A stretch of DNA of 64,000 bases from Bacteroidota bacterium (GTDB lineage Bacteria > Bacteroidota > Bacteroidia > JACCXN01). Positions within the stretch are counted from its first letter, which is position 1; each line of letters opens with the position of its first letter. Below the pieces are notes generated by a model. That model ran no database searches and was not told the origin of the DNA. It saw nothing but the letters and a program-made list of their open reading frames with translations. The stretch covers positions 62,001 through 126,000 of the forward strand of contig JACCXN010000020.1 in NCBI GenBank assembly GCA_013696965.1. The letters run 5' to 3'. Shown here one piece after another: positions 27,787 through 43,780 of this stretch. Position numbers and translations under genes: made by a program.

Positions 27787-28479
27787 ATGAACAAAACAGT
27801 AAAGGACGCAGAAGCTGCTATTGCAGGAATAAAAGACAATATGACTTTAATGCTGGGTGGATTTGGATTATGTGGAATTCCAGAAAACTGCATTTCAGCA
27901 CTTGTTAAAAAAGGAATAATGGGATTAACCTGCATATCCAATAATGCCGGAGTTGATGATTTTGGATTAGGATTACTGCTACACAACAAACAAATAAAAA
28001 AAATGATTGCCTCTTATGTAGGAGAAAATGCGGAATTTGAAAGACAATTGCTAAGTGGGGAATTGGAAGTTGACCTGGTACCACAGGGAACCCTTGCAAC
28101 ACGTTGCATGGCCTCAGGATATGGAATACCTGCAGTATTTACACCTGCCGGAGTTGGTACTGAAATAGCCCAGGGAAAAGAAGTAAGAAACTTTAATGGA
28201 AAAGATTACTTACTTGAATTTGCTTTTGACGCTGATTTTGCAATCGTAAAGGCATGGAAGGGTGATACTCAGGGCAATCTAGTGTTCCGCGCAACTGCCA
28301 GAAACTTCAATCCACTTATGGCAATGGCTGGAAAAATAACCATTGCAGAAGTAGAAGAACTTGTCCCAGTAGGCCAACTGGACCCTGATTCCATACATAC
28401 TCCAGGCATTTTTGTTCATAGGATATTTCAGGGAAGTAACTATGAAAAAAGAATTGAGCAAAGAACCCTTAGAAGTTAA
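27787..28479 (+). CDS. scoA: 3-oxoacid CoA-transferase subunit A
   Basis: A 230-residue family I CoA-transferase alpha subunit, which with subunit B moves CoA between succinyl-CoA and 3-oxoacids such as acetoacetate. The glycine-rich CoA site is seen in MTLMLGGFGLCGIPENCI, with FTPAGVGTEIAQGKE and GKDYLLEFAFDADFAIVKAWK typical of this subunit. The end (YEKRIEQRTLRS) is complete. The partner scoB normally follows within a few bases, often overlapping; here it lies 10,150 bp downstream with glycosyltransferase genes between. Only 12 bp separate scoA from the PBP1A stop. Confidence 0.94.
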   Translation: MNKTVKDAEAAIAGIKDNMTLMLGGFGLCGIPENCISALVKKGIMGLTCISNNAGVDDFGLGLLLHNKQIKKMIASYVGENAEFERQLLSGELEVDLVPQGTLATRCMASGYGIPAVFTPAGVGTEIAQGKEVRNFNGKDYLLEFAFDADFAIVKAWKGDTQGNLVFRATARNFNPLMAMAGKITIAEVEELVPVGQLDPDSIHTPGIFVHRIFQGSNYEKRIEQRTLRS

Positions 28480-28610: not shown

Positions 28611-30467
28611 ATGAATAAGCTCTCCGCTGGTGTTACCCTGGTATTATCCATAATCCTTGTAACCCTGATTGGACTTAACCCATACCCTAACACTATTTCC
28701 TGGGATGTTTTTGGGTATTACCTGTATTTACCTGCTGTGTTTATTTATCAGGATTTGGGTTTAAAGAATATTGAGGTAATTGAAAACATAATTCAAACTT
28801 ATAGCAGCACTTCTACTTTTTACCAGGCAACAAGATTGCCGGAAGGAGTATGGGTTTTTAAATACTCCATGGGCATGGCTGTTTTATATGCCCCGTTTTT
28901 TTTTATTAGTCATTTTTTAGCTTTATTTCTAGACTATGCTGCTGATGGATTCTCTCCTCCCTATCAATGGGGACTAATTGCCGGTAGCTTTTTTTACACT
29001 TTAGCTGGCCTTTACTTTTTACGAAAAGTTCTATTGAAATTTTTTAATGATCAAATTACTGCTATTGCACTTATTTTAATTGTTGTTGGCACCAATTACT
29101 TTCATATTGTGATTTACAGCAGTTTAATGCCACATAACTTCCTTTTCACTTTATACACTCTTGTTTTATGGTTTACCTTAAAATGGCATGAAACATTTAA
29201 AATTAAATATATTGTTTTGTGCGGAATAGTTTGCGGACTATGTATCCTGAGCAGGCCTTCAGAAATAGTTTGTCTTTTGATTCCTGCACTTTGGACAATA
29301 AACAATAAGGAAAGTTTTATTGAAAAAATACGGTTGTTACTAGAAAAAAAAGTTCAAATACTCTTGTTTTTATTGGTTGTATTTACAACCTGTTTGCCTC
29401 AACTTATTTATTATAAAATGATCACGGGCAAATTTTTGTATTCAAGTTATGGAAATTATGGCGAAGGAATGGAGTTTTTGAAGCCATATACCTTAGAAGT
29501 TCTATTTAGTTTCAGGAAGGGATGGTTTATTTATACTCCAATTATGCTATTTGCCATTATTGGACTATTTATGATGCTTAAAAACAAATGGAAACACAGC
29601 TTTGCTATAGTCCTGTTTACAATCGTTAATGTGTATATTGTTTCTAGCTGGTCATGCTGGTGGTATGCCGATAGTTTTGGCCAAAGAGCATTAATGCAAT
29701 CCTTTGCGGTACTTGCCTTGCCTTTGGGCTATTTTATCCTGTGGTTGAAAAGCAAGCAAATTTATCTAAAGGTTTTATCTTCTATTGCTTTTGGTTTTTT
29801 CATTTTATTGAACTTGTTTCAAACCTGGCAAATCAATAATTATATTATTCATTCCTCCAGGATGACTTTTTCCTATTATCTCAAAGTGTTTGGAAAAACA
29901 ACAGTTCAGGAAGAGGACAAAAAACTATTATTGGTGAATAGATTTTTTATTGGAGATGAAACGGTGCAAAACGAAGATGAATTTGCCAAAACTACGCTTG
30001 GTTTTATTGATTTTGAAAAGAATAAAACATATGAACTGAGTTATGAAAAACACCGGAAATATGTATTATCCAAAAAACAGTATTTTTCAGGAAATACCTC
30101 ATTAAAGTTAGATAGCAACAATATTTTTTCTCCAAAATATGAAATAACCTACAAGGATCTCACAGACAAAGAATATGCATGGATAAGAGTTTCTGCAATG
30201 ATTTATCCCACAGCAGATTTAAAAAACGATCCGGCAAGTATTGTAATTACTTTTAAGCATAAATGGAACAATTATAAATATGCTGCATTAAATTTTGAAA
30301 ATCTACCCCATTTAGAATTAAACAAATGGAACAAAGTAAGTTTTGATTACCTTACACCTGAGGTAAGGAAAAAAAGTGACAACTTAAGTGTTTATGCATG
30401 GAATAGAGGGAAGAAAAACATATACATTGATGACCTGAAAATTGATGTTTTTGAACCAAAAAATTAA
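28611..30467 (+). CDS. Polytopic GT-C-like membrane protein with C-terminal beta domain
   Basis: A 618-residue protein with about 10-11 predicted membrane helices (residues 1-420) and a soluble C-terminal region (about 460-618). The membrane part begins with an acidic first-loop motif (NPYPNTISWDVFGYYLYLP), as in GT-C glycosyltransferases, and has SFRKGWFIYTPIMLF before the last helices. The C-terminal part is beta-rich (NKWNKVSFDYLTPEVRK, VYAWNRGKKNIYIDDLKI) and resembles a carbohydrate-binding sandwich. It is a paralog of the protein at 42338-43780, and its C-terminal domain recurs in the protein at 36171-38177. Probably transfers a sugar from a polyprenyl phosphate donor; substrate unknown. 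Confidence 0.7.
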   Translation: MNKLSAGVTLVLSIILVTLIGLNPYPNTISWDVFGYYLYLPAVFIYQDLGLKNIEVIENIIQTYSSTSTFYQATRLPEGVWVFKYSMGMAVLYAPFFFISHFLALFLDYAADGFSPPYQWGLIAGSFFYTLAGLYFLRKVLLKFFNDQITAIALILIVVGTNYFHIVIYSSLMPHNFLFTLYTLVLWFTLKWHETFKIKYIVLCGIVCGLCILSRPSEIVCLLIPALWTINNKESFIEKIRLLLEKKVQILLFLLVVFTTCLPQLIYYKMITGKFLYSSYGNYGEGMEFLKPYTLEVLFSFRKGWFIYTPIMLFAIIGLFMMLKNKWKHSFAIVLFTIVNVYIVSSWSCWWYADSFGQRALMQSFAVLALPLGYFILWLKSKQIYLKVLSSIAFGFFILLNLFQTWQINNYIIHSSRMTFSYYLKVFGKTTVQEEDKKLLLVNRFFIGDETVQNEDEFAKTTLGFIDFEKNKTYELSYEKHRKYVLSKKQYFSGNTSLKLDSNNIFSPKYEITYKDLTDKEYAWIRVSAMIYPTADLKNDPASIVITFKHKWNNYKYAALNFENLPHLELNKWNKVSFDYLTPEVRKKSDNLSVYAWNRGKKNIYIDDLKIDVFEPKN

Positions 30468-31440: not shown

Positions 31441-32448
31441 ATGTCAAAAACACTTATCATTACCTCAATTGCAAACGATCAAAATGCAATATTAAAACAA
31501 TTTGCAAAGGAATGCAAAGAACAAAACACGCCATTCATTGTAATTGGTGACACAAAATCACCGGAAAATTTCCAATTAGAGGGTTGTGATTACTGGAATG
31601 TTGAGCGTCAATTGGGCTTGCCTTTTGAACTGGCAAAAATCACCCCCACCCGCCATTATTCAAGAAAAAATTTGGGATATCTTATTGCCATAAAAAACGG
31701 GGCAACGGAACTGGTAGAAACAGATGATGACAATATTCCGCGTAAAGAATTTTGGGAACCAAAATCTCGTGAAGTAAAGAGCCATCAGTTTGAAAACAAG
31801 GGCTGGGTAAATGTATACCATTACTTTAGCAAGCAGATGATTTGGCCAAGAGGCTTTCCTTTGGAGGAGTTACAAAAAAAACAAATTGCACTTTCAGACC
31901 TGGAAAACAAAAGTACCCTGTGCCCTATTCAACAAGGCCTTGCTGATGAGAATCCGGATGTTGATGCAGTTTACAGACTTACTTACCCCCTGCCATTTAA
32001 TTTTGAATTAAAAGAACGCTTAGCATTAGGCAAAAACGCATGGAGCCCCTTTAACAGTCAGAATACCTATTGGTTTAAAGAAGCTTTTGCATTGATGTAT
32101 TTACCCTCGTATTGCAGCTTTAGGATGACCGACATCTGGCGCAGTTATGTTGCACAGCGTATAGCATGGGAATGCGGCTGGAGCATACTATATCACGAAC
32201 CTACAGTTTGGCAGGAGCGCAACGAACACAATTTGATGAAAGATTTTGAAGATGAAATTCCAGGATACACCAACAACTTTAATATTTGCAAAGAATTACA
32301 AGCACTTGATTTAAAGCCAGGCCAGGAAAACATCTACCCTAATTTAATAGCCTGTTATCAAAAACTAATTGATATGGGTGTGATTGGAAAAGATGAGATG
32401 ATATTGTTAAAAGCATGGATAAGCGACTTGAAAATAGTATTAAATTAG
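31441..32448 (+). CDS. STELLO/DUF288-like glycosyltransferase
   Basis: A 335-residue cytosolic protein matching the STELLO (DUF288) family: QLGLPFELAKITPTRHYSRK, then NLGYLIAIKNGATELVETDD with a triple-Asp DDDN metal site. WKNGWVNVYHYF-like elements follow (here NKGWVNVYHYFSKQMIWPRG). In plants STELLO proteins act in the Golgi on cellulose synthase assembly; the bacterial members are of unknown substrate. The gene starts 51 bp after the GT2 gene, and its stop is one base from the next gene's ATG, so the three form an operon. Confidence 0.75.
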   Translation: MSKTLIITSIANDQNAILKQFAKECKEQNTPFIVIGDTKSPENFQLEGCDYWNVERQLGLPFELAKITPTRHYSRKNLGYLIAIKNGATELVETDDDNIPRKEFWEPKSREVKSHQFENKGWVNVYHYFSKQMIWPRGFPLEELQKKQIALSDLENKSTLCPIQQGLADENPDVDAVYRLTYPLPFNFELKERLALGKNAWSPFNSQNTYWFKEAFALMYLPSYCSFRMTDIWRSYVAQRIAWECGWSILYHEPTVWQERNEHNLMKDFEDEIPGYTNNFNICKELQALDLKPGQENIYPNLIACYQKLIDMGVIGKDEMILLKAWISDLKIVLN

Positions 32449-32449
32449 A

Positions 32450-34138
32450 ATGATTCAATCCAAAATTAAAATCTATTCTGCTTTCGTTTTATTGATTATT
32501 CTTGTTTCTTACCCGCTTTTCTTAAACTTAGACAAACTAAGTGTAAGAATGTGGGATGAGGCTAGAAATGGAATTAATGCAATTGAAATGTTAGGAAATG
32601 GAAAGCTATTTGTAACCCATTTCGATGATCAGCCTGATATGTGGAACACAAAGCCTCCATTTATGATTTGGATGATTGCACTTTCCATGAAATTTTTTGG
32701 TGTAACTACATTTGCATTAAGATTCCCCTCTGTTCTGGCAGCTCTAACAATTGTTATATATGGTTTTTGGTTTGCAAGAAAATATATTCAATCAACAAAC
32801 CTTGGTTTTATATTTGGATTAGTTTTATGCACATCAATTGGATTCATTGATCATCATGCATCAAGAAATGGAGATTTCGACACAATGCTTGCAATGTGGA
32901 TATTCCTATATGTTACACAGTTTTTTCTGTTTTTAGAAAACAGAAAACAAATAAATTTAATACTTTTCTCCATTTTTTTTGGTCTGGCTTTACTTACCAA
33001 AGGAATTGCAGCATGCATGATTTTACCAGGCCTGGCAATTTATTTTTTTATCGATAAAAAGAATCTCACATTATTAAAGTCAGCAAATTTTTATGTATTC
33101 TCTTTTTTGGGCCTGCTAATTGGGCTCTCCTATTACATTATTCGGGAACAAATGAACCCTGGCTTTATTGAGATGGTAATTTTTAATGAAATAACAGGCA
33201 GATATGCTGAAACAAACGAAGGTCATTCGGGATCAATTTGGTTTTACTATGAATTATTAAGGGACTACCACTATAAGTTTTGGATATATTTTATTCCATT
33301 GGCACTAGTCCTGATCTTTTTAAGGGCAGATAAAAAATTAAAAAAAATAACAGCATTTATTTTTCTTCAGGCTATAGTATATTTTGCAGTAATTACTTTT
33401 TCAGATACAAAACTAGATTGGTACGACCTCCCATTATTTCCATTGTTTGCCCTAATAATAGCCGCTGGCTTTACTCAATTACAAATACAAATATCAGGTT
33501 TAAGTGTGTTGAAAAAATCTATTTTTAAACAATTTGTTTATCTATCAATAACGTCACTAATTTTTATTATTCCTCTGAAAAATATTTTTGCCACATCCAT
33601 TCAGTTTGAAAAAGAAACCTATTATCCTGAGACGTTTTATGGCGATTTTATAAATGAAATACATGCATTATTTCCCAATCAAAAAAATTTAAAGGTAACT
33701 TCCGAAGGTTACAATCCGCATCTAATCTTTTATATAAAAGAGAAAGAAATGCATCATTTGAATATTGAAATTGTTCAACCAACCAACCATGATTTTGTAC
33801 AAAATGACACAATTATGGTAACGGAAATGAAATTTTTTCCAACATTGAAGGAAGATTTGGTTTTAGATACTTTAATTATTGCTGAAGGTCCGAAATTATT
33901 GCTTCGGGTAATTTCCTATGATGAATACTTCAAAAACAAATATGTAAAACTATTTCTAAAAAAAGTTTCAGAAATTAATTCCGACAAGCAGTGGAACCAA
34001 GCAACAAAGCAAAAGGCTCTAAATAATAATGTAACCATAGAAAAACAAGTTATGCTGGAAGCATTGTGGTGTTTAACTAATGCTAAAGAAATTAGCCCTG
34101 AAGAACAAGATTCCATCAAAGTTAAATACAATTTTTAA
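32450..34138 (+). CDS. GT39/ArnT-type membrane glycosyltransferase
   Basis: A 562-residue polytopic protein with about 10-11 helices. The first periplasmic loop carries the WDEARNG motif (Asp-Glu as in PMT and ArnT enzymes), followed by WNTKPPFMIWMIALSMKFFG and HHASRNGDFDTML. LALLTKGIAACMILPGLAIYF is also typical. It should transfer a sugar from a lipid-phosphate donor to an acceptor outside the inner membrane. The soluble C-terminus (about 400-562) ends with a 40-residue motif shared with two other cluster proteins (WNQATKQKALNNNVTIEKQV). Translationally close to the upstream gene (1 bp gap). Convergent with the next gene. Confidence 0.85.
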   Translation: MIQSKIKIYSAFVLLIILVSYPLFLNLDKLSVRMWDEARNGINAIEMLGNGKLFVTHFDDQPDMWNTKPPFMIWMIALSMKFFGVTTFALRFPSVLAALTIVIYGFWFARKYIQSTNLGFIFGLVLCTSIGFIDHHASRNGDFDTMLAMWIFLYVTQFFLFLENRKQINLILFSIFFGLALLTKGIAACMILPGLAIYFFIDKKNLTLLKSANFYVFSFLGLLIGLSYYIIREQMNPGFIEMVIFNEITGRYAETNEGHSGSIWFYYELLRDYHYKFWIYFIPLALVLIFLRADKKLKKITAFIFLQAIVYFAVITFSDTKLDWYDLPLFPLFALIIAAGFTQLQIQISGLSVLKKSIFKQFVYLSITSLIFIIPLKNIFATSIQFEKETYYPETFYGDFINEIHALFPNQKNLKVTSEGYNPHLIFYIKEKEMHHLNIEIVQPTNHDFVQNDTIMVTEMKFFPTLKEDLVLDTLIIAEGPKLLLRVISYDEYFKNKYVKLFLKKVSEINSDKQWNQATKQKALNNNVTIEKQVMLEALWCLTNAKEISPEEQDSIKVKYNF

Positions 34139-34198
34139 AACTCTACTTTTTGAATTGCAACTTTAAAAGTAAAAATAGAAACTATTTTAAAACAGATA

Positions 34199-36106
34199 CT
34201 ATTTTTTCAGCTCTTCTTCTATAATCCATTTTGCGTCATAATATAAGGCTGTATCCAAACTTGTATTACTTTCTCTGGCTTTTAATTTAATCATTTCAAG
34301 CCATTCTGGGTTAGCTTTTATCTGAACGATTTTAATATTTATTTTTTCTTCTTTAGTGGTTCCTATTTGAATTACTGGATCAATTTTTAAAACATATCTT
34401 GCATCACCAATCAAAGCCTGCTCCTCGGAAACACCCTCCTTTTCAGCTCGTTCAATCACTGAATTATACCAATTGGGAGTGGCTTTTATTATTTCAATCA
34501 TATTTTGTGTTTTTCTTACATTATCAATTTCTATTAGCAATGCTTTAGGTAGAAATTTTGATGAAATATTGTCAACATTTAAATAAGCCCAATTATTAAT
34601 AAAATTAGTATTTTCATTTATTGAATCAATTTGAGCTTTATTCAAGCCTATTATTTCCAAATTATCTGTATGTTGTTTGTGTATAAGTATTTTGGTAATA
34701 GTACCATCTGTTTTCATGAAATAAGCAGGAGTACTTGAATAATCATAGGCTGCATTAGGAAAATACCTATTTAAGAATATTACTGGGTCCGGGTTGTAAA
34801 ATTTGGGATAATTTTCCAACACCCATACTGAAATGGGTTTTGGCACATTTGTGGACCAGTCATAATCACTTAAATTGTTGTGATAAATTACTGTTGCTAT
34901 TTGGGTTATAAGCGCAAAAGAAGCAATACTGATTTTTAACCTCAGGTTTTTAATTTCGTACAGCAAAAACGCAAAATGAACCAAAATCATTCCACTAAAG
35001 TAGGTAACATAACGATTTACAACAGACTGGCCATGATTCCAATTATCAATTGTTGCTGCAATGCAAACAGAAAATACAGTAAAAACCACTATTATTATTT
35101 CTAAAATATATTCCGGAGGTTTAGTTGTGAGAAATTTCCGAATAAGAAGGAAAATATATAAAAACAAAACAAGTGGAATTGCCAATATTGCGCCTTGATT
35201 AATATCAAAAAACAAACCCAAAACACGATTAACAGTTACATAGTCAAAACTTAAAGCCCCCTGATATTTAATAAGGTTTGTTTCACCAAAATGGTAGTAG
35301 TAGAACAAAGATGGACCAAGCACTATTATTGTGCTTAAGCCCAACTTTACTAGATTTTTAATATTAATTGGTGCTTTAATTAATGTATATACCGCTAAAC
35401 CAGCAATCAAAATAGCCATTGGCTGATTTTGCAATGCAGCAATAGACATTAAAAACAAACCCCAATAACGCCTTTCGGATAGGAATAAAAACAAACCCAA
35501 TGAAGAAAAACAAACTGTAAATACTTCTGGGTGTTGCCAGGATAAATACCAATAGTTTGTTGAAAAATAAAACATGAATACAAAGAGAGTTGTATATAGC
35601 TTATTAAATCCACTATATCTGAAGAATAAAAAACTACAAATAACAATCAACATTAAATTAGTGAGCTGATGGATAATTAATGGATTAAAATCCAATACAG
35701 CACAAAGAATACGGGAAGGCACATTAATTAAAGAGTATGCAAAGAAATGACAACTAAATTTTTTACCCTTTTCACTTACAAAAAAAGCATAATCGTAATC
35801 CAGAGGTTGATGATTCTTTTCTGAAACAAACTGCTGAGCTGCATCATAAGTTATTGCTTTTTCATTATTGGACCAGTCGGCAATTTTAGTGTATGCTTTT
35901 TTAAAGGTTTCAAAATCACCCTCTCTTACATCAGGTGAAAAATGATTGTAAAAAGCCTCTGTCATTATTGTATATTCAATTACATCCCCCGTAGGATAAA
36001 TTTTATCTTCACTTACTAGTCGAAAAACCCCAAGAATAAAAATAACAATTACAACAAGGGAGGAAATACTAATTAAATTGCTTTTTATATTTTTTATAAA
36101 TTCCAT
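34199..36106 (-). CDS. Polytopic membrane protein, putative GT-C glycosyltransferase
   Basis: A 635-residue protein with about 10-12 helices and a soluble C-terminus. After the first helix an acidic loop (YPTGDVIEYTIMTEAFYNHF) and a later HQPLDYDYAFF segment are compatible with a GT-C fold, but no family could be assigned firmly. The C-terminal 105 residues contain two copies of a W...A...DA motif: NWYNSVIERAEKEGVSEEQA at about 545-564 and EWLEMIKLKARESNTSLDTA at about 601-620. The same motif occurs in the proteins at 32450 and 39363. It is downstream of the 36171-38177 gene on the minus strand (64 bp apart). Confidence 0.7.
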   Translation of the reverse strand: MEFIKNIKSNLISISSLVVIVIFILGVFRLVSEDKIYPTGDVIEYTIMTEAFYNHFSPDVREGDFETFKKAYTKIADWSNNEKAITYDAAQQFVSEKNHQPLDYDYAFFVSEKGKKFSCHFFAYSLINVPSRILCAVLDFNPLIIHQLTNLMLIVICSFLFFRYSGFNKLYTTLFVFMFYFSTNYWYLSWQHPEVFTVCFSSLGLFLFLSERRYWGLFLMSIAALQNQPMAILIAGLAVYTLIKAPINIKNLVKLGLSTIIVLGPSLFYYYHFGETNLIKYQGALSFDYVTVNRVLGLFFDINQGAILAIPLVLFLYIFLLIRKFLTTKPPEYILEIIIVVFTVFSVCIAATIDNWNHGQSVVNRYVTYFSGMILVHFAFLLYEIKNLRLKISIASFALITQIATVIYHNNLSDYDWSTNVPKPISVWVLENYPKFYNPDPVIFLNRYFPNAAYDYSSTPAYFMKTDGTITKILIHKQHTDNLEIIGLNKAQIDSINENTNFINNWAYLNVDNISSKFLPKALLIEIDNVRKTQNMIEIIKATPNWYNSVIERAEKEGVSEEQALIGDARYVLKIDPVIQIGTTKEEKINIKIVQIKANPEWLEMIKLKARESNTSLDTALYYDAKWIIEEELKK

Positions 36107-36170
36107 TCTTTTTCGAATTACTAATTATTTACTTACTTTATTTTAAAAAAAATGCATCAAAATTTGAACT

Positions 36171-38177
36171 CTAAAACTCACCTTTTTGTATAACAACTTT
36201 AAAATTTTCAATGTAAAAATTCTCTTTAGCACGGTTCCAAACATATATTTTTAATTCCGCATCATCAGAAATACCGCTAGGCAAGTTTGCTATTAAAGAA
36301 ATATTATTCCAGTTATTTGGCACCTTCATTTTTTCCAGAACAATTAAATCAGCTCTGAACAAGGATTCCCCATCTTTTTCAACTGAAATAACCATATGTC
36401 CGATTGATTTTTTTTCATTATAAACTAAAGCGTTTATTGAAATGGCTGTTTTTCCATTCAATTCACTTATTTTTTTTACTATTCCCGGGCTAAACTGATT
36501 TTGTTCATTAATTAAATAAGATGCCCTTCCAGTATCAGTGAATATAATTGAAGGGTTATCTATATTACAACCTGCATTCATAAAGGAAGAATGAAAAACA
36601 AGACAAGAATCACCCTTAACATTCTTGCCAATAAAGCTTTTTACCAAATCACAGGGATTGTCTGAGACATCTGCAATAATTTCAATTGGATTACAAGCTA
36701 ACTCATTTTTTACAAATACAGTGTAGCCTGTACTGATTCTCTTGTAATAGCTGCATTCTTTAAATCCTTTACTTACAATAAATTCTTCTATTTTATGGTC
36801 AGGATCCTGAAATTGCGAATGAGAATGAACATAAATAACTTTATTTATAGTATCGTAATTTAAATTTTCCCATCCATACAAAGGACACTTCTCACAATAG
36901 TAAACATTGTTTTTTGCCAACATTTCAGCCGATTTTGAATAATTCCTAAAGGATTCGTAATCGTAATAAAAAGCAAAATCCATGTATTTATAAGTGGCGG
37001 AAATAAAAATAACCGTATTCTTATCCTGCTTACTTTTTACAACCGGAACCATTCTTTTCCAATCATCTTCGCGTTCCTGCGTAATTTCAAAAGAAGTGAG
37101 TATCAATAAAGCAAAAGGGATAATAAATAAGAACTTATAAAGAAATTTCATTTTTAGATTTGAAAAAAAGTAAGCAATGCACAAAAACAAACCAATGGTG
37201 GTATACAAAATATACCTTGCATGGAATACCGGGGTTTTCTGAGAAACAATAAAATCCAGAACTATGGGCAGGATATACAGTGTTACAAAAACAAAGTAGT
37301 GTTTGCGATTAAACTCCATGCTAAGAACCTTCAGCTGATTGTTGAAAACAACAATCAAAAATGAAAGCGAAACAAATGCACTAAAAACATAAAACAAAGT
37401 TTCACTTCCCGAAAGAACATTTGTATGGTATCTAAATGCATCAAAATTTGGAGCTATGTTCCAAAAAGAGCCTTCTTTGGGAACATTGGATAAGAGTATA
37501 GAAACCCAGGGCAAAAAAGAAATTACAAGGAATATTTGACTAACAAAATAATAAACAAAAGCTTTTCTGTTTTCTTTAAAATATCCCCAAATAAAAACAA
37601 ACTGAACAACAAGAATAAAAACAGAAAGGTAATGCGTAAAGAGTAAAGACAAATTAATTAACCACAAAAAAATAACATCGCTCTTTTTGGGCTTAGTAAG
37701 CAAATTGAAATAAATATAAAATGAAGAAATGCACAACAATTGAATAAGGGCATAAGGCCTTACCTCTGTAGAGAAATAGTGCTGGGAATTGGAAAACAAA
37801 AACAAGAAAAAAGCAATTACTGCTGTTTGAATGTTCAAAAACTTTTTGGCAAATAAAAATAAAATAAGGCCTGCAAAAACACTACATGCAACAGATAACA
37901 TTTTAGAAGCTATTTCTGTTACTCCGAAAATTTCCATCCAAAAATGCAACAAAGCAATGTGCATGGGTGGGTTTTGATCATTTAAAAATATTACTTTTAG
38001 TTCAGATAGCGATTTTTGACCATGAAACACACTATACATCTCATCGCCATATAAGCTCTCCAGAGAAAGGCCATATGTACGAATAAACAGTGATAGTAAA
38101 AACAAAAAAAACAACAGTAAAAAGAATATTAATTTACTATTTAATCCTTGTTTTTTATTTGTTGGAATTTCACCCAT
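36171..38177 (-). CDS. GT39-type membrane glycosyltransferase with C-terminal beta domain
   Basis: A 668-residue polytopic protein starting at the ATG at 38177 (MGEIPTNKKQG); the frame is open to a GTG at 38204. The first loop RTYGLSLESLYGDEMYSVFH contains the Asp-Glu pair of GT39 enzymes, with NDQNPPMHIALLHFWMEIFG following, a common pattern. About 11 helices fill residues 1-390. The C-terminal soluble part ends with a beta domain (NNWNNISLIANLPSG, IYVWNRAKENFYIENFKVV) homologous to that of the protein at 28611. It may glycosylate a lipid or surface polymer; the substrate is unknown. Confidence 0.82.
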   Translation of the reverse strand: MGEIPTNKKQGLNSKLIFFLLLFFLFLLSLFIRTYGLSLESLYGDEMYSVFHGQKSLSELKVIFLNDQNPPMHIALLHFWMEIFGVTEIASKMLSVACSVFAGLILFLFAKKFLNIQTAVIAFFLFLFSNSQHYFSTEVRPYALIQLLCISSFYIYFNLLTKPKKSDVIFLWLINLSLLFTHYLSVFILVVQFVFIWGYFKENRKAFVYYFVSQIFLVISFLPWVSILLSNVPKEGSFWNIAPNFDAFRYHTNVLSGSETLFYVFSAFVSLSFLIVVFNNQLKVLSMEFNRKHYFVFVTLYILPIVLDFIVSQKTPVFHARYILYTTIGLFLCIAYFFSNLKMKFLYKFLFIIPFALLILTSFEITQEREDDWKRMVPVVKSKQDKNTVIFISATYKYMDFAFYYDYESFRNYSKSAEMLAKNNVYYCEKCPLYGWENLNYDTINKVIYVHSHSQFQDPDHKIEEFIVSKGFKECSYYKRISTGYTVFVKNELACNPIEIIADVSDNPCDLVKSFIGKNVKGDSCLVFHSSFMNAGCNIDNPSIIFTDTGRASYLINEQNQFSPGIVKKISELNGKTAISINALVYNEKKSIGHMVISVEKDGESLFRADLIVLEKMKVPNNWNNISLIANLPSGISDDAELKIYVWNRAKENFYIENFKVVIQKGEF

Positions 38178-38293
38178 TGTTGACAAATATTCTCGTGGAA
38201 TCACCCTTATGGGTATTTCTTAATGGTCTGCAATACTCTATATTATCACAAACATAGTATTATTTTTTTTGTTTACACAGGAAACAAATATTC

Positions 38294-38624
38294 ATGAATT
38301 ACAATTCACAATTACTTAACTGGAATTTGAGGATAAGCAGGGGACTAATAACTATCTTATTTTTCAAGGAATTAGCTGTTCATACATTTATACTACAATT
38401 TGAATTTTTGCAGTTATTAATGAAAATTAGGCTTAAAATAAAGAAACAGGCAACAAAGAGTTTTGAAAATTCAATGAATTTAGAGTTAAATAAATGTAAT
38501 AAAGTTAGTTTTGACTACCTTTCCGCTGAATTCAGATAAAACTGCCTAAAAAAATAAAACCGGTAAAAATCAGAATATTTTCATCCCTGATTATAAAATT
38601 GATATTTTTGAACCACAAAATTAA
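38294..38624 (+). pseudogene. Decayed 3' fragment of a GT-C-like gene before scoB
   Basis: The stretch 38467-38624 is homologous to 30300-30467, the 3' end of the membrane protein gene at 28611. One frame encodes LELNKCNKVSFDYLSAEFR, matching LELNKWNKVSFDYLTPEVR. After a stop and a frameshift, a second frame gives [18 protein letters not shown], matching the parent C-terminus KNIYIDDLKIDVFEPKN, with a stop at the same place (38622-38624). The part before 38467 is open but I cannot align it. The scoB ATG lies 5 bp after the remnant. It appears to be what remains of a second copy of that gene. Confidence 0.7.
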
Positions 38625-38629
38625 TTAAA

Positions 38630-39289
38630 ATGCCTTTAGATAAGAACGGAATTGCCAAACGCATTGCCCAGGAAGTAAAAGACGGTTTCTATGTAAATTT
38701 AGGAATTGGAATACCTACCTTGGTAGCAAATTATATCCCTGAAGGAGTTGATGTTATACTTCAATCAGAAAATGGCTTATTGGGAATGGGCCCTTTTCCT
38801 TTTGCAGGAGAAGAAGATCCTGATTTGATAAATGCCGGAAAACAAACCATTACAACAATTCCTGGATCTGCTTTTTTTGATTCAGCCATGAGTTTTGGAA
38901 TGATTCGCGCAGGGAAAGTTGACCTTACCATTCTTGGAGCAATGGAGGTGAGTGAAACAGGAGATATTGCCAATTGGAAAATACCGGGAAAAATGGTAAA
39001 AGGTATGGGAGGTGCAATGGATTTAGTAGCTTCGGCCAAAAACATTATTGTTGCCATGCAACATATTAATAAGGCCGGGGAATCAAAATTACTTCCAAGT
39101 TGTTCCCTTCCACTTACGGGAGTTAAGTGTGTAAAAAAAATTGTCACAGAATTGGCTGTAATTGATGTTACTCCCCAAGGTTTTAAACTTATTGAAAGGG
39201 CGCCAGGAGTATCTGTGGAAGAAATAGTAAAAGCCACAGCTGGAAAATTAATCGTTGAAGGAGAAATTCCGGAAATGAAAATTTTTTAA
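38630..39289 (+). CDS. scoB: 3-oxoacid CoA-transferase subunit B
   Basis: A 219-residue beta subunit of the CoA-transferase whose alpha subunit is at 27787-28479. [15 protein letters not shown] precedes the catalytic Glu47 in [10 protein letters not shown], which forms the glutamyl-CoA intermediate. [20 protein letters not shown] and [20 protein letters not shown] are conserved features. The sequence appears intact and full length. It is separated from scoA by 10 kb and directly follows the decayed fragment, so its transcription must start within or upstream of that fragment; I see no clear promoter. Confidence 0.94.
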
Positions 39290-39362
39290 ATTCAAACTTC
39301 CTGTAAATAAATTCAGGCTAAATTATCCGGAAAAACGTTGAATTTAACACCATAAAAAAAAC

Positions 39363-41351
39363 ATGATCAAATTAATTCGTTTTAGTGCCCTATTTATTCT
39401 AATCGCACTTTTTGCCTCATGTAGTAATAGTCCTGAAATTTTAAATGTAAAATACAATTTAGGTGAACTTTCAAATGGAGTTATTCAAGCCGATTTATCG
39501 GGGGTAGTTACCAATGGGATAGAAATTCCAACAGAAAGGCAAACCGCTTCTGGCAATTTCGACATTTCATTTGAGGTAAAAGGAAGCAAAGGCCAGAATT
39601 ATTTTTACAAGATTTATTACCAGAACGAAAGTTACAAATTCCCTGAAATTGCTGATACTGCCCAAAATTACAATGCATTTGCAGATGAAAATTTCTATGG
39701 CTCTTGGAATGATCCATCTATAGGATTTAAAAAAGTGCCTGCAATTGATTTTACTATTAATGAATCCATAAAAATTATTGGCAATCCAAGAGACGAAAAA
39801 AAATATTATGGAATTCCATTCCAAAAAACGTATTACAGTGAGGAAGATATTCAAGCCGTAGGCAAAAACATAAGGGAAACACAAGACTGGTTTGCCGCCA
39901 TAGTTTCAAAAGCAGAAAAAAATAAATTAAGTATCGAAGAACAATTGCTTTTTGATGCTAAGTGGGTTTTGAAAAATGAAACCAGGGGAGAGCATGAAAA
40001 CAACCGGTGGAAAAGAAATCCAAGAATGGGCACTTACAGCCTTATGGTAGTAGTTACTACAGAGGAGGAACTAGCCAAGATCCCTAAACACATCCAATTT
40101 ATAAATGAACTTTCAGATAGCGGAATTTTCGTTTCTCCTTATTACTTTTTCAAATACAAAATAAACCCTGATTCTTTTCCTGATACAAAAGTATTTATTG
40201 ATAGCTCCTTTGTAAGGGTACAAGCTTCCATGGATGTTGCTGGGGGAATATGTGCCAATCCACTTGAATATCCCTCTTCAGAAAAAATGCCCGATGAAAA
40301 AGCGTGTGGTTGGAATAAGGATTTATTTAACAATGCACATTTCGGCCAGTTTTTTTCCTCCCTGAATAAAAACTTCCACTTAAATACAATACCTCTTATT
40401 CAAGACGTAAATGATTCCAGTTATACAAAGGATGAATATGATTCAGCAATAAAAAAATATTCAGAAAAACAATTTAAAAAAGATTACATAAGAAGTACTG
40501 AAAATCCGTGTAAATATGTAAGGTATAATGAAAATAAAAAAGCTATTGAGATTGTGAATCCCGGAAATGACAAGCTTGCAGATGCACACAAAGTTAATAT
40601 GGGGATTAAAACAAGAATAGGATTCACTTACGGAAAAATAACTGCTAAAATTAAATTCCCTGAACTGATAAATAAACATAACGTTTGGAATGGATTAACA
40701 AATGCCTTTTGGTTAATATACCAGGATGAACAGGAATGGAATAATCGCAGGGTTTGTAAAACAGGCTATTCCAAAAAGGGAGAAACCATAAATGATGCTC
40801 CAAGGATTTCTCAGACAAATTATTCAGAAATAGATTTCGAAATAGTAAAAACAAGCCCTAAATGGCCAATAGGTTATTACAAGGGGAGAATAAATGAAAA
40901 GGATGAATCGCAAAGTGATGATATTATTGTTGGATGCACTAACTGGGATTTAACCTGTAAGGATTGCAAAACATATACATGGGGAATTGATACGGTTGAA
41001 TATGAAAATAAAACTTTTGAAACAATGCGATGGGACAGTCATTATCAAGCCCTTACTACCCGAACTGCAGCAAAAGACAATGACTTATTCAAAAGCCCAT
41101 ATTACTACTACCAATTTGAATGGACTCCCAACCATATTATTTGGAGAATAGGACCGGAAAAGGATAAACTATCCGTTGTTGGATATATGAACAGTGATAT
41201 AACATCTATTCCCAACAATCAAATGATTGCTGTAATTACCCAGGAATACCACTTATCGGAGTGGTGGCCTCCTATAACCTTTAAGCAAGAATTCATTCCA
41301 TTTCCAAAAAATGATATAATAGGGGAAGTATATGAATTAACGATTGAATAA
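39363..41351 (+). CDS. Lipoprotein with GH16-like C-terminal domain
   Basis: A 662-residue lipoprotein. Signal and lipobox end in FASC (C20). The N-terminal part (about 25-140) is beta-rich. A helical W...KA...DAKW motif follows at about 166-206, shared with two neighbouring membrane proteins. The C-terminal part (about 385-662) looks like a concanavalin-A-type glucanase: GKITAKIKFPE, NAFWLIYQDEQEWNN, then SEIDFEIV, where E489-I-D491-F-E493 fits the GH16 catalytic pattern ExDxE, then YQFEWTPNHIIWRIG, the usual GH16 strand. So it may cleave or transfer a beta-glucan-like chain at the cell surface. Family assignment is by motif only. Confidence 0.65.
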   Translation: MIKLIRFSALFILIALFASCSNSPEILNVKYNLGELSNGVIQADLSGVVTNGIEIPTERQTASGNFDISFEVKGSKGQNYFYKIYYQNESYKFPEIADTAQNYNAFADENFYGSWNDPSIGFKKVPAIDFTINESIKIIGNPRDEKKYYGIPFQKTYYSEEDIQAVGKNIRETQDWFAAIVSKAEKNKLSIEEQLLFDAKWVLKNETRGEHENNRWKRNPRMGTYSLMVVVTTEEELAKIPKHIQFINELSDSGIFVSPYYFFKYKINPDSFPDTKVFIDSSFVRVQASMDVAGGICANPLEYPSSEKMPDEKACGWNKDLFNNAHFGQFFSSLNKNFHLNTIPLIQDVNDSSYTKDEYDSAIKKYSEKQFKKDYIRSTENPCKYVRYNENKKAIEIVNPGNDKLADAHKVNMGIKTRIGFTYGKITAKIKFPELINKHNVWNGLTNAFWLIYQDEQEWNNRRVCKTGYSKKGETINDAPRISQTNYSEIDFEIVKTSPKWPIGYYKGRINEKDESQSDDIIVGCTNWDLTCKDCKTYTWGIDTVEYENKTFETMRWDSHYQALTTRTAAKDNDLFKSPYYYYQFEWTPNHIIWRIGPEKDKLSVVGYMNSDITSIPNNQMIAVITQEYHLSEWWPPITFKQEFIPFPKNDIIGEVYELTIE

Positions 41352-41391: not shown

Positions 41392-42120
41392 GTGAACAAA
41401 GTCAAGAAACTTTCCATAATAATTCCAGCTTACAATGAGGCTGCTACAATTCATTTAATCCTCAATAAGGTATCAAAAGTTGAACTTGTGGATAACATGG
41501 AAAAGGAAATTATTATTGTAAATGATTGTTCCTCTGATAATACAGCTGAAGTTATAGAAAAATACATGCTTAACAATTCAGGTACTACCATTAGCTTGCA
41601 TAACCAGCCCTACAATCAGGGGAAAGGAGCTGCATTGCACAAAGGTATCAAACTTGCCTCTGGTGATTATGTAATTATCCAGGATGCCGATTTGGAATAT
41701 GATCCTGAAGAATACAATGTGTTGTTAAAACCCCTTATAAACGATGTGGCTGATGTTGTATACGGATCAAGATTTATTGGAGGAAAGCCGCACCGCATTC
41801 TTTTTTTCTGGCATACATTAGGGAATAAATTTTTAACTGCGCTTTCCAATATGTTCACCAATTTGAATTTAACGGATATGGAAACCTGTTACAAGGTATT
41901 TAGATCGGATATTATAAAAAACATTGATTTTAAGGAAAAGCGATTTGGTTTTGAACCGGAAGTTACAGCAAAAATTGCCAGAGTACCTAAGGTGCGCATT
42001 TATGAAATAGGAATTTCTTATTATGGCAGAACATACGAAGAAGGAAAAAAAATTGGATGGAAAGATGGTGTAAGAGCAATTTACTGCATTATGAAATACA
42101 ATATTTGGAATCGAAAATAA
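41392..42120 (+). CDS. Glycosyltransferase family 2, polyprenyl-phosphate type
   Basis: A 242-residue GT-A enzyme. [34 protein letters not shown] and the metal-site strand [20 protein letters not shown] are clear. [20 protein letters not shown] and [14 protein letters not shown] are typical of enzymes that pass a hexose to polyprenyl phosphate. No C-terminal membrane helices, so peripheral. The start codon is GTG at 41392; an in-frame stop six codons upstream excludes a longer form. It follows the GH16-like lipoprotein by 40 bp. Confidence 0.88.
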
Positions 42121-42196: not shown

Positions 42197-42341
42197 ATGC
42201 ATAAAATTTACAGGAAAAAAGATAAAGACATTAAAAAAAGTATCCTTTGACAACACAATTTCCATATCTGAGTATAATTATTCCTATAAATCAGGAACAG
42301 GTGTTATTGTTAAAAACAACAGGTATTATTTTAAGAAATGA
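42197..42341 (+). pseudogene. Possible small frameshifted reading frame
   Basis: From the ATG at 42197 one frame reads MHKIYRKKDKDIKK and then stops soon after an A7 run (42233-42239). In the frame used past that run the sequence continues VSFDNTISISEYNYSYKSG and GVIVKNNRYYFKK to a TGA at 42339-42341. That stop overlaps the ATG of the next gene as ATGA, the usual sign of coupled genes. I cannot name the product. It could be the tail of a decayed gene. Confidence 0.35.
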
Positions 42342-43780
42342 CAATGCCTAAACTAAAATTTGATTTTTCCCGGGTAATTCATAAAACAACTATTTCTGGA
42401 TTTATACTTGCATTCATTGTTTCATTTTTAATCTTTGAAACATTTAGTAAAAAACTTTGGGAAACCAGGGAGATTATTATTTCAGATGTAATCTCCTATT
42501 ATGGTTATTTGCCTGCGGCAATAATTCACAATGATTTACACTTAAATTTTATTTATTCCGATCACAAAGGGGTTTATTGGCCTGTTGAGGCTCCAAATGG
42601 AGGGCTGGTGTTTAAAATGACAATGGGACTTTCCATTTTATATTTACCTTTTTTCACAATGGCCCATTTAGAGGCTTTAATATTTGGGTATGAGGCCTAT
42701 GGGTTTTCTATGCCCTATCAGAAATGGATACAGCTTTCCGGATTATTTTATTTTTTTTTCGGACTATTCTATCTTCGCAAAACTCTTAAATTGTTTTTCA
42801 ATGATATTACCGTTTCTTCAACACTACTCACTCTGTTGTTTGCAACAAATCTATATTATTTTGTTACGGATTTATCTCCCTACAGCCATAGTTTTAATTT
42901 TACTTTAATTGCAGCATTTACTTATTACAGCATAAAATGGCATGAAGACAAATCGTTTAAAAAATCATTAATAATAGGTGTTATAGGAGGATTAATTGTT
43001 TTGGCCAGGCCTGTTAATATTCTTGTATTTGTATTTTTTGCATTGTATGATGTTAAAAATTTCTCAGACTATAAATACAGAATCAAAGAGGTTTTAATTT
43101 ACAAAAAACAATTGCTGATAATAGCCTCAATTTCATTTTTAGTAATTCTCCCTCAGCTAATTTACTGGAAAATTATAACCGATCATTTTTTTTATTACTC
43201 CTATACAAATGCAACCCTTGGAGTGGAAAGGTTTTTTTGGACAAATCCTCATATACTGGAAGGACTTTTTAGTTACAGGAAAGGCTGGCTGGTTTATTCT
43301 CCGGTAATGATTTTTTCTCTAATTGGCTTTATTCTACTTTATAAAAAACAGAAAAAATTTTTCATACCCCTTGTTACTTTGTTTGTTTTGTTCATTTATA
43401 TAATTTTTTCCTGGTGGAGCTGGTGGTATGGTGGAGGTTATGGTATGCGACCTATGATAGATATTTATCCATTTTTAGCAATCCCTTTTTGCGCTTTTGT
43501 AGAATACATAATCACCCAAAAAAAAATCATTTACAATGCCCTTGTTGCACTAACATTTTCTTTTTGTATTTATCTTAATTTTCATCAAACCAACCAATAT
43601 CGTGTAGGGTTATTGCATTGGGAGAGTATGACTAAGGAAGCCTATTGGATTTTATTCCTAAACAATCAACTCAATGATTCAGATATAAAGGCATTGAGTG
43701 TTGGGTTTAAAGACCCTGATTTTAAAAAGGCAATGAGAGGTGAGGATGAATATGAATTCAAACCTTTTTATAAAAAATAA
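42338..43780 (+). CDS. Polytopic GT-C-like membrane protein, paralog of the protein at 28611
   Basis: A 480-residue membrane protein with about 11 helices and no large soluble C-terminal domain. It aligns with the 28611 protein throughout: DVISYYGYLPAAIIHNDLHL against DVFGYYLYLPAVFIYQDLGL, then GFSMPYQKW, FYLRKTLKLFFND, LARPVNI, LPQLIYWKIITDHFFYYSY and LFSYRKGWLVYSPVMIFSLI. The conserved first-loop Asp and the SYRKGW motif suggest a GT-C transferase subgroup that I cannot name. It ends 4 bp from the aspS stop in convergent orientation. Confidence 0.7.
   Translation: MTMPKLKFDFSRVIHKTTISGFILAFIVSFLIFETFSKKLWETREIIISDVISYYGYLPAAIIHNDLHLNFIYSDHKGVYWPVEAPNGGLVFKMTMGLSILYLPFFTMAHLEALIFGYEAYGFSMPYQKWIQLSGLFYFFFGLFYLRKTLKLFFNDITVSSTLLTLLFATNLYYFVTDLSPYSHSFNFTLIAAFTYYSIKWHEDKSFKKSLIIGVIGGLIVLARPVNILVFVFFALYDVKNFSDYKYRIKEVLIYKKQLLIIASISFLVILPQLIYWKIITDHFFYYSYTNATLGVERFFWTNPHILEGLFSYRKGWLVYSPVMIFSLIGFILLYKKQKKFFIPLVTLFVLFIYIIFSWWSWWYGGGYGMRPMIDIYPFLAIPFCAFVEYIITQKKIIYNALVALTFSFCIYLNFHQTNQYRVGLLHWESMTKEAYWILFLNNQLNDSDIKALSVGFKDPDFKKAMRGEDEYEFKPFYKK

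Follow-up and report, generated by a model that had tools for sequence, protein, structure and literature searches.

The open reading frame (ORF) at positions 39363-41351 of the window, which is the 64,000-nucleotide stretch of DNA analysed here, lies on the + strand; its product is a 662-residue protein whose N-terminus is of the lipoprotein type and which has a C-terminal GH16-like domain. The features of the ORF and of the surrounding genes are as follows.

39363..41351, + strand: whole ORF, a lipoprotein with a C-terminal GH16-like domain (sequence, relatives' alignment and relatives' Pfam matches)
39363..39422, + strand: lipoprotein-type signal peptide ending at Cys20 (sequence; a Cys at the matching site in most relatives, a plain N-terminal transmembrane segment as the anchor in a few)
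39450..39812, + strand: N-terminal conserved beta-rich region, residues ~30-150 (relatives' alignment; strands only in a low-confidence model)
39840..39998, + strand: three-helix module insert, residues 160-212, with W176...D198-A199-x-W201 (alignment, profile search and model)
39999-40082, + strand: resumption of the N-terminal region past the insert, residues 213-240 (relatives' alignment)
40515..41348, + strand: GH16-like domain, residues ~385-662 (via relatives)
40827..40841, + strand: EIDFE, residues 489-493, with putative catalytic E489, D491 and E493 (conservation; alignment to the GH16 catalytic motif)
33923..34105, + strand: PMT_2 glycosyltransferase 32450-34138, one module copy close to its C-terminal end (E 7.5e-9)
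34202..34537, - strand: tandem pair of C-terminal modules in the membrane glycosyltransferase-like protein 34199-36106 (profile search)
41392..42120, + strand: downstream GT2 glycosyltransferase, whose best family match is of the polyprenyl-phosphate type (relatives encoded at 16 of 41 homologue loci)
42338..43780, + strand: multi-spanning putative glycosyltransferase, LA_3751-like, below the cut-off (relatives encoded at 10 homologue loci)

The N-terminus of the protein, MIKLIRFSALFILIALFASC-SN, resembles a lipoprotein signal, and with the lipobox FASC placed at residues 17-20 by the sequence rule, the product is predicted to be a lipoprotein whose signal peptide ends at the lipobox cysteine. 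By sequence, the protein has no match in Pfam, NCBIfam or PDB. No second homologue is present in its own genome (106 contigs; of the class Bacteroidia, to judge by the relatives), where the further, weak matches coincide with the motif region of a neighbouring glycosyltransferase, and no relatives were found among the viral contigs and plasmids searched. A full-length relative (39%) occurs in the uncultured Bacteroidales genome L005, and in a class-wide search 55 of 395 genomes have a member of the family. The alignment used here comprises 46 sequences from Bacteroidia, namely the target and 45 relatives, with identities down to about 30% and many invariant tryptophan and other aromatic residues.

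The initial annotation had described a GH16-like EIDFE site at residues 489-493 in a concanavalin-like setting and had proposed an HMM search against GH16. The target itself gives no match in this search, but 18 of 35 relatives match PF00722 in Pfam (best E 1.6e-6), and one of these, from L042, exceeds the curated Pfam cut-off at 23.3 bits. The PF00722 profile matches in two stretches, which lie on either side of the catalytic strand and in the correct order. A profile-profile comparison with GH16 sequences from Bacteroidia genomes yields a probability of 84% locally and 91% globally (E 1.1e-7 for the single comparison), and the global alignment lays EID over the GEID of the GH16 catalytic strand. 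The GH16-like assignment is thus supported through the relatives, and the motif is confirmed as conserved across the alignment: E489 occurs in 46/46 sequences, and D491 and E493 each occur in 45/46, which indicates that EIDFE in the target is not a chance occurrence. In the target, the motif stands in the context YGKITAKIKFP ... NGLTNAFWLIYQ ... YSEIDFE ... YYQFEWTPNHIIWRIG. An AlphaFold2 model of the full-length protein, made with only two sequences as its alignment, has a pLDDT of 34, a low value that is put down to the shallow alignment.

GH16 falls into two classes, one of which is the EXDXE class (PMC6827312). EIDFE fits the EXDXE/EXDXXE motif with both glutamates and the aspartate and, as in the EXDXE class, has no beta-bulge residue. 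By homology through its relatives, the ORF is assigned a GH16-type domain that is divergent and belongs to the EXDXE class. The order of the conserved blocks, the position of EIDFE on the catalytic strand and the conserved E/D/E are shared with GH16 (PF00722; CAZy GH16), whereas the target is too divergent for the Pfam model, has approximately 380 additional N-terminal residues and carries an inserted helical module. One relative, L047:9131-11170, has EINMK where the others have EIDFE; it lacks D491 and E493 and is probably an inactive member, which suggests that some members may no longer be active.

The motif W..KA..DA.W spans residues 176-201 of the ORF, within an insert flanked by GNPR(N/D)ExxYfG before and NNRWKRNPRxGxY after. 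The module has about 45 residues in three helices and was modelled by AlphaFold2 with a pLDDT of 84.9 from six copies, solely from the window and L005. The three-helix unit is absent from domain databases: searches of Pfam, NCBIfam and PDB with the module give no match, and a Foldseek search of its model against PDB gives nothing significant (best E 1.2). The PDB sequence matches obtained for the protein, the family and the module, e.g., to a threonyl-tRNA ligase and designed armadillo repeats, were rejected as chance only. The insert is present in 25 of the 46 aligned sequences, in L036 as two tandem copies, and the remaining 21 are without a trace of it, which indicates that the core function does not need the module. 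In the tree of the 46 sequences, the module-free members form one clade (support 0.977), as would result from a single gain or loss; loss rather than gain is favoured by midpoint rooting, with the root itself unplaced.

The same motif is found in two glycosyltransferases of the window, twice at the C-terminus of 34199-36106 and in a weaker form in 32450-34138. A profile search of the 3.86-Mb genome finds four strong module copies (E 4e-19 to 7.5e-9), all on three proteins within about 6 kb (window 33923 to 40004), and no further strong copy, the next best being a 55-residue frame with an E of 0.83. The weaker copy of 32450-34138 reaches 2.2e-14 with a broader profile, which includes this copy as a member. 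The module is present in 30 of 99 genomes in a class draw and in 1 of 297 in a phylum-wide draw (its own genome only); the two draws sample different genomes and give no overall module frequency.

Where Pfam identifies the host of a module, it is an ALGX acetyltransferase-like protein, a PMT/PMT_2 glycosyltransferase or a Wzy_C O-antigen ligase. When 71 distinct hosts are classed by masking their modules and running BLAST against labelled references, they comprise 26 GH16-like lipoproteins, 26 ALGX/SGNH proteins (20 ALGX and 6 SGNH-like), 12 PMT/GT proteins (7 PMT and 5 GT of the 34199 type), 5 Wzy proteins and 2 otherwise unclassified proteins; these counts come partly from neighbourhoods picked around relatives of the ORF, and the class-wide draw gives the same host types. 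The label of the six SGNH-like hosts is a reading based on their resemblance to the L120 protein, which has no Pfam match. The module is C-terminal in all hosts except the GH16 lipoproteins, with 1-61 residues remaining after it, and these C-termini carry 1-3 copies per host, the ALGX partners likewise having one to three. One of the two unclassified hosts, L046:6897-7310, is a lipoprotein of 138 residues that consists of two tandem modules alone and is encoded near a relative of the gene. No other module copy is detected in 12 of the 24 insert-bearing genomes, which suggests that the partner of the module is probably not another module. An obligate module-module pairing between proteins is disfavoured, since the module occurs in these 12 genomes only in the GH16-like protein.

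An MBOAT gene lies within 8 kb in 8 of 21 insert-bearing loci, and in all eight the GH16-like gene abuts the MBOAT or ALGX gene on the same strand with a gap of -3 to 48 bases, an arrangement that resembles an operon; in the window, no MBOAT gene was identified among the part of the ORFs that was scanned. The unusual architecture, the W...DA.W motif in common with other proteins and the link to glycan genes, all pointed out in the initial annotation, are borne out, and the module hosts and the MBOAT/ALGX neighbours extend them. The placement between glycosyltransferase genes holds directly downstream, but the direct upstream neighbour, 38630-39289, is a CoA-transferase subunit gene, with glycosyltransferase genes one step further upstream. 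Surface anchoring, in contrast, is not supported. An acidic signal just past the lipobox cysteine is the export rule for surface-exposed lipoproteins of Bacteroidota, and it is absent right after Cys20, where the target reads CSNSPEIL; additionally, some relatives have a transmembrane anchor, and the partner enzymes belong to periplasmic types.

In light of these results, the product is probably a GH16-type endo-glycanase or transglycosylase from a divergent, unannotated branch of the family, tethered to the membrane and facing the periplasm, which would work on the polysaccharide of its neighbours and use the module as a recruitment unit, a reading to which we give a probability of approximately 0.6. 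We infer in this way its catalysis, substrate, periplasmic location and module function. The enzyme's polysaccharide would be one that the neighbouring machinery makes and modifies, with E489 as the putative nucleophile and E493 as the putative acid/base on one beta-strand and D491 between them. The three-helix insert would recruit it to a periplasmic partner, either a protein or a glycan, which it would share with the GT-C glycosyltransferases, O-antigen ligases and ALGX acetyltransferases that bear the same unit. The polymer could then be trimmed or transferred at the place where it is built. The GH16-like domain is compatible with both a transglycosylase and a hydrolase.

Two alternatives concern the enzyme itself. 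The GH16-like domain might have kept the fold but serve as a lectin, for glycan binding or as a scaffold, without catalysis; the strong divergence of the target from GH16, with no match of its own, the many invariant aromatic residues and the loss of the aspartate and second glutamate in L047 would be consistent with this, but the retention of the triad in 45/46 sequences, down to about 30% identity, is unexpected without catalysis and makes such a lectin improbable. In Bacteroidota, GH16 lipoproteins often act as enzymes in polysaccharide utilisation loci, which speaks for a surface-exposed, nutrient-degrading GH16 enzyme. However, those neighbours that were identified serve biosynthesis (GTs, MBOAT, ALGX and GT2), no SusC/SusD gene was found among the part of the neighbours that was scanned, and the lack of the export-like signal and the transmembrane-anchored relatives also argue against a nutrient-degrading role, which we consider very improbable.

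For the module, a protein-docking role competes with that of a glycan- or peptidoglycan-binding unit that holds the enzymes on the polymer or cell wall, much like the carbohydrate-binding parts known from other enzymes. The conserved Trp/Tyr residues, the tandem arrangement of up to 3 copies, the handling of sugar polymers by all host enzymes and the 12 of 24 genomes in which the GH16-like protein is the sole module bearer, as would fit a non-module ligand, are in line with glycan binding. A three-helix bundle is an uncommon fold for this purpose, though, and the all-helical prediction, together with the lack of likeness to any Pfam family and of any significant Foldseek match, renders a binding unit of this kind rather unlikely. 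A more far-reaching and less likely possibility is that Bacteroidia have in the three-helix unit a docking module not described before, which would gather late periplasmic enzymes of the surface glycan (GT-C transferases, O-antigen ligase, O-acetyltransferase and GH16 glycanase) into one complex, sometimes bridged by the stand-alone two-module lipoprotein.

ExoK of Sinorhizobium meliloti is a GH16 enzyme, and the role proposed for the target resembles it as that of a glycanase on the cell's own polymer as this is made and acetylated; unlike the target, ExoK is alphaproteobacterial and secreted and is not known to have a helical module. As a glycanase encoded together with an exopolysaccharide pathway, ExoK cuts succinoglycan, the acyl-modified polymer of its own cell (PMC4916376). 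In the alginate system AlgI/AlgJ/AlgX/AlgF/AlgK, an MBOAT protein acts with an ALGX-domain partner in the periplasm, and AlgF is a separate protein proposed as a protein-protein mediator in acetylation (PMC10641220). The loci of the relatives likewise pair MBOAT with ALGX, and AlgF offers a precedent for docking; however, AlgF has two beta-sandwich domains in place of a helical module, the alginate system lacks a GH16 enzyme, and the putative docking unit described here is built into the enzymes themselves. The literature search, with the terms tried, found no report of a GH16-like domain combined with the module. If the proposal is correct, a new glycanase branch would be built into surface-polysaccharide assembly, and a small module would mark, and perhaps link, unrelated glycan enzymes of Bacteroidia, so that unannotated parts of such pathways could be found by the module tail alone. 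How periplasmic glycan enzymes come together would then be directly testable, with the module-free relatives as a natural control.

The two CoA-transferase subunit genes of the window, 27787-28479 and 38630-39289, are separated by a glycosyltransferase island of approximately 10 kb, whereas they are adjacent in L071 and L056 and fused in L065, which suggests that the island was probably inserted or rearranged in the window. The membrane proteins 28611-30467 and 36171-38204 have a C-terminal stretch, ..YVWN/YAWN...IYIDDLKI, that is also found in proteins of 640-790 residues adjoining the gene's relatives in L035, L055, L056 and L071 and is possibly a second add-on domain of the glycan machinery. 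Additionally, 31441-32448 encodes a STELLO-type glycosyltransferase-like protein, whose relative in L065 matches PF03385 and which is kept near four relatives of the gene.
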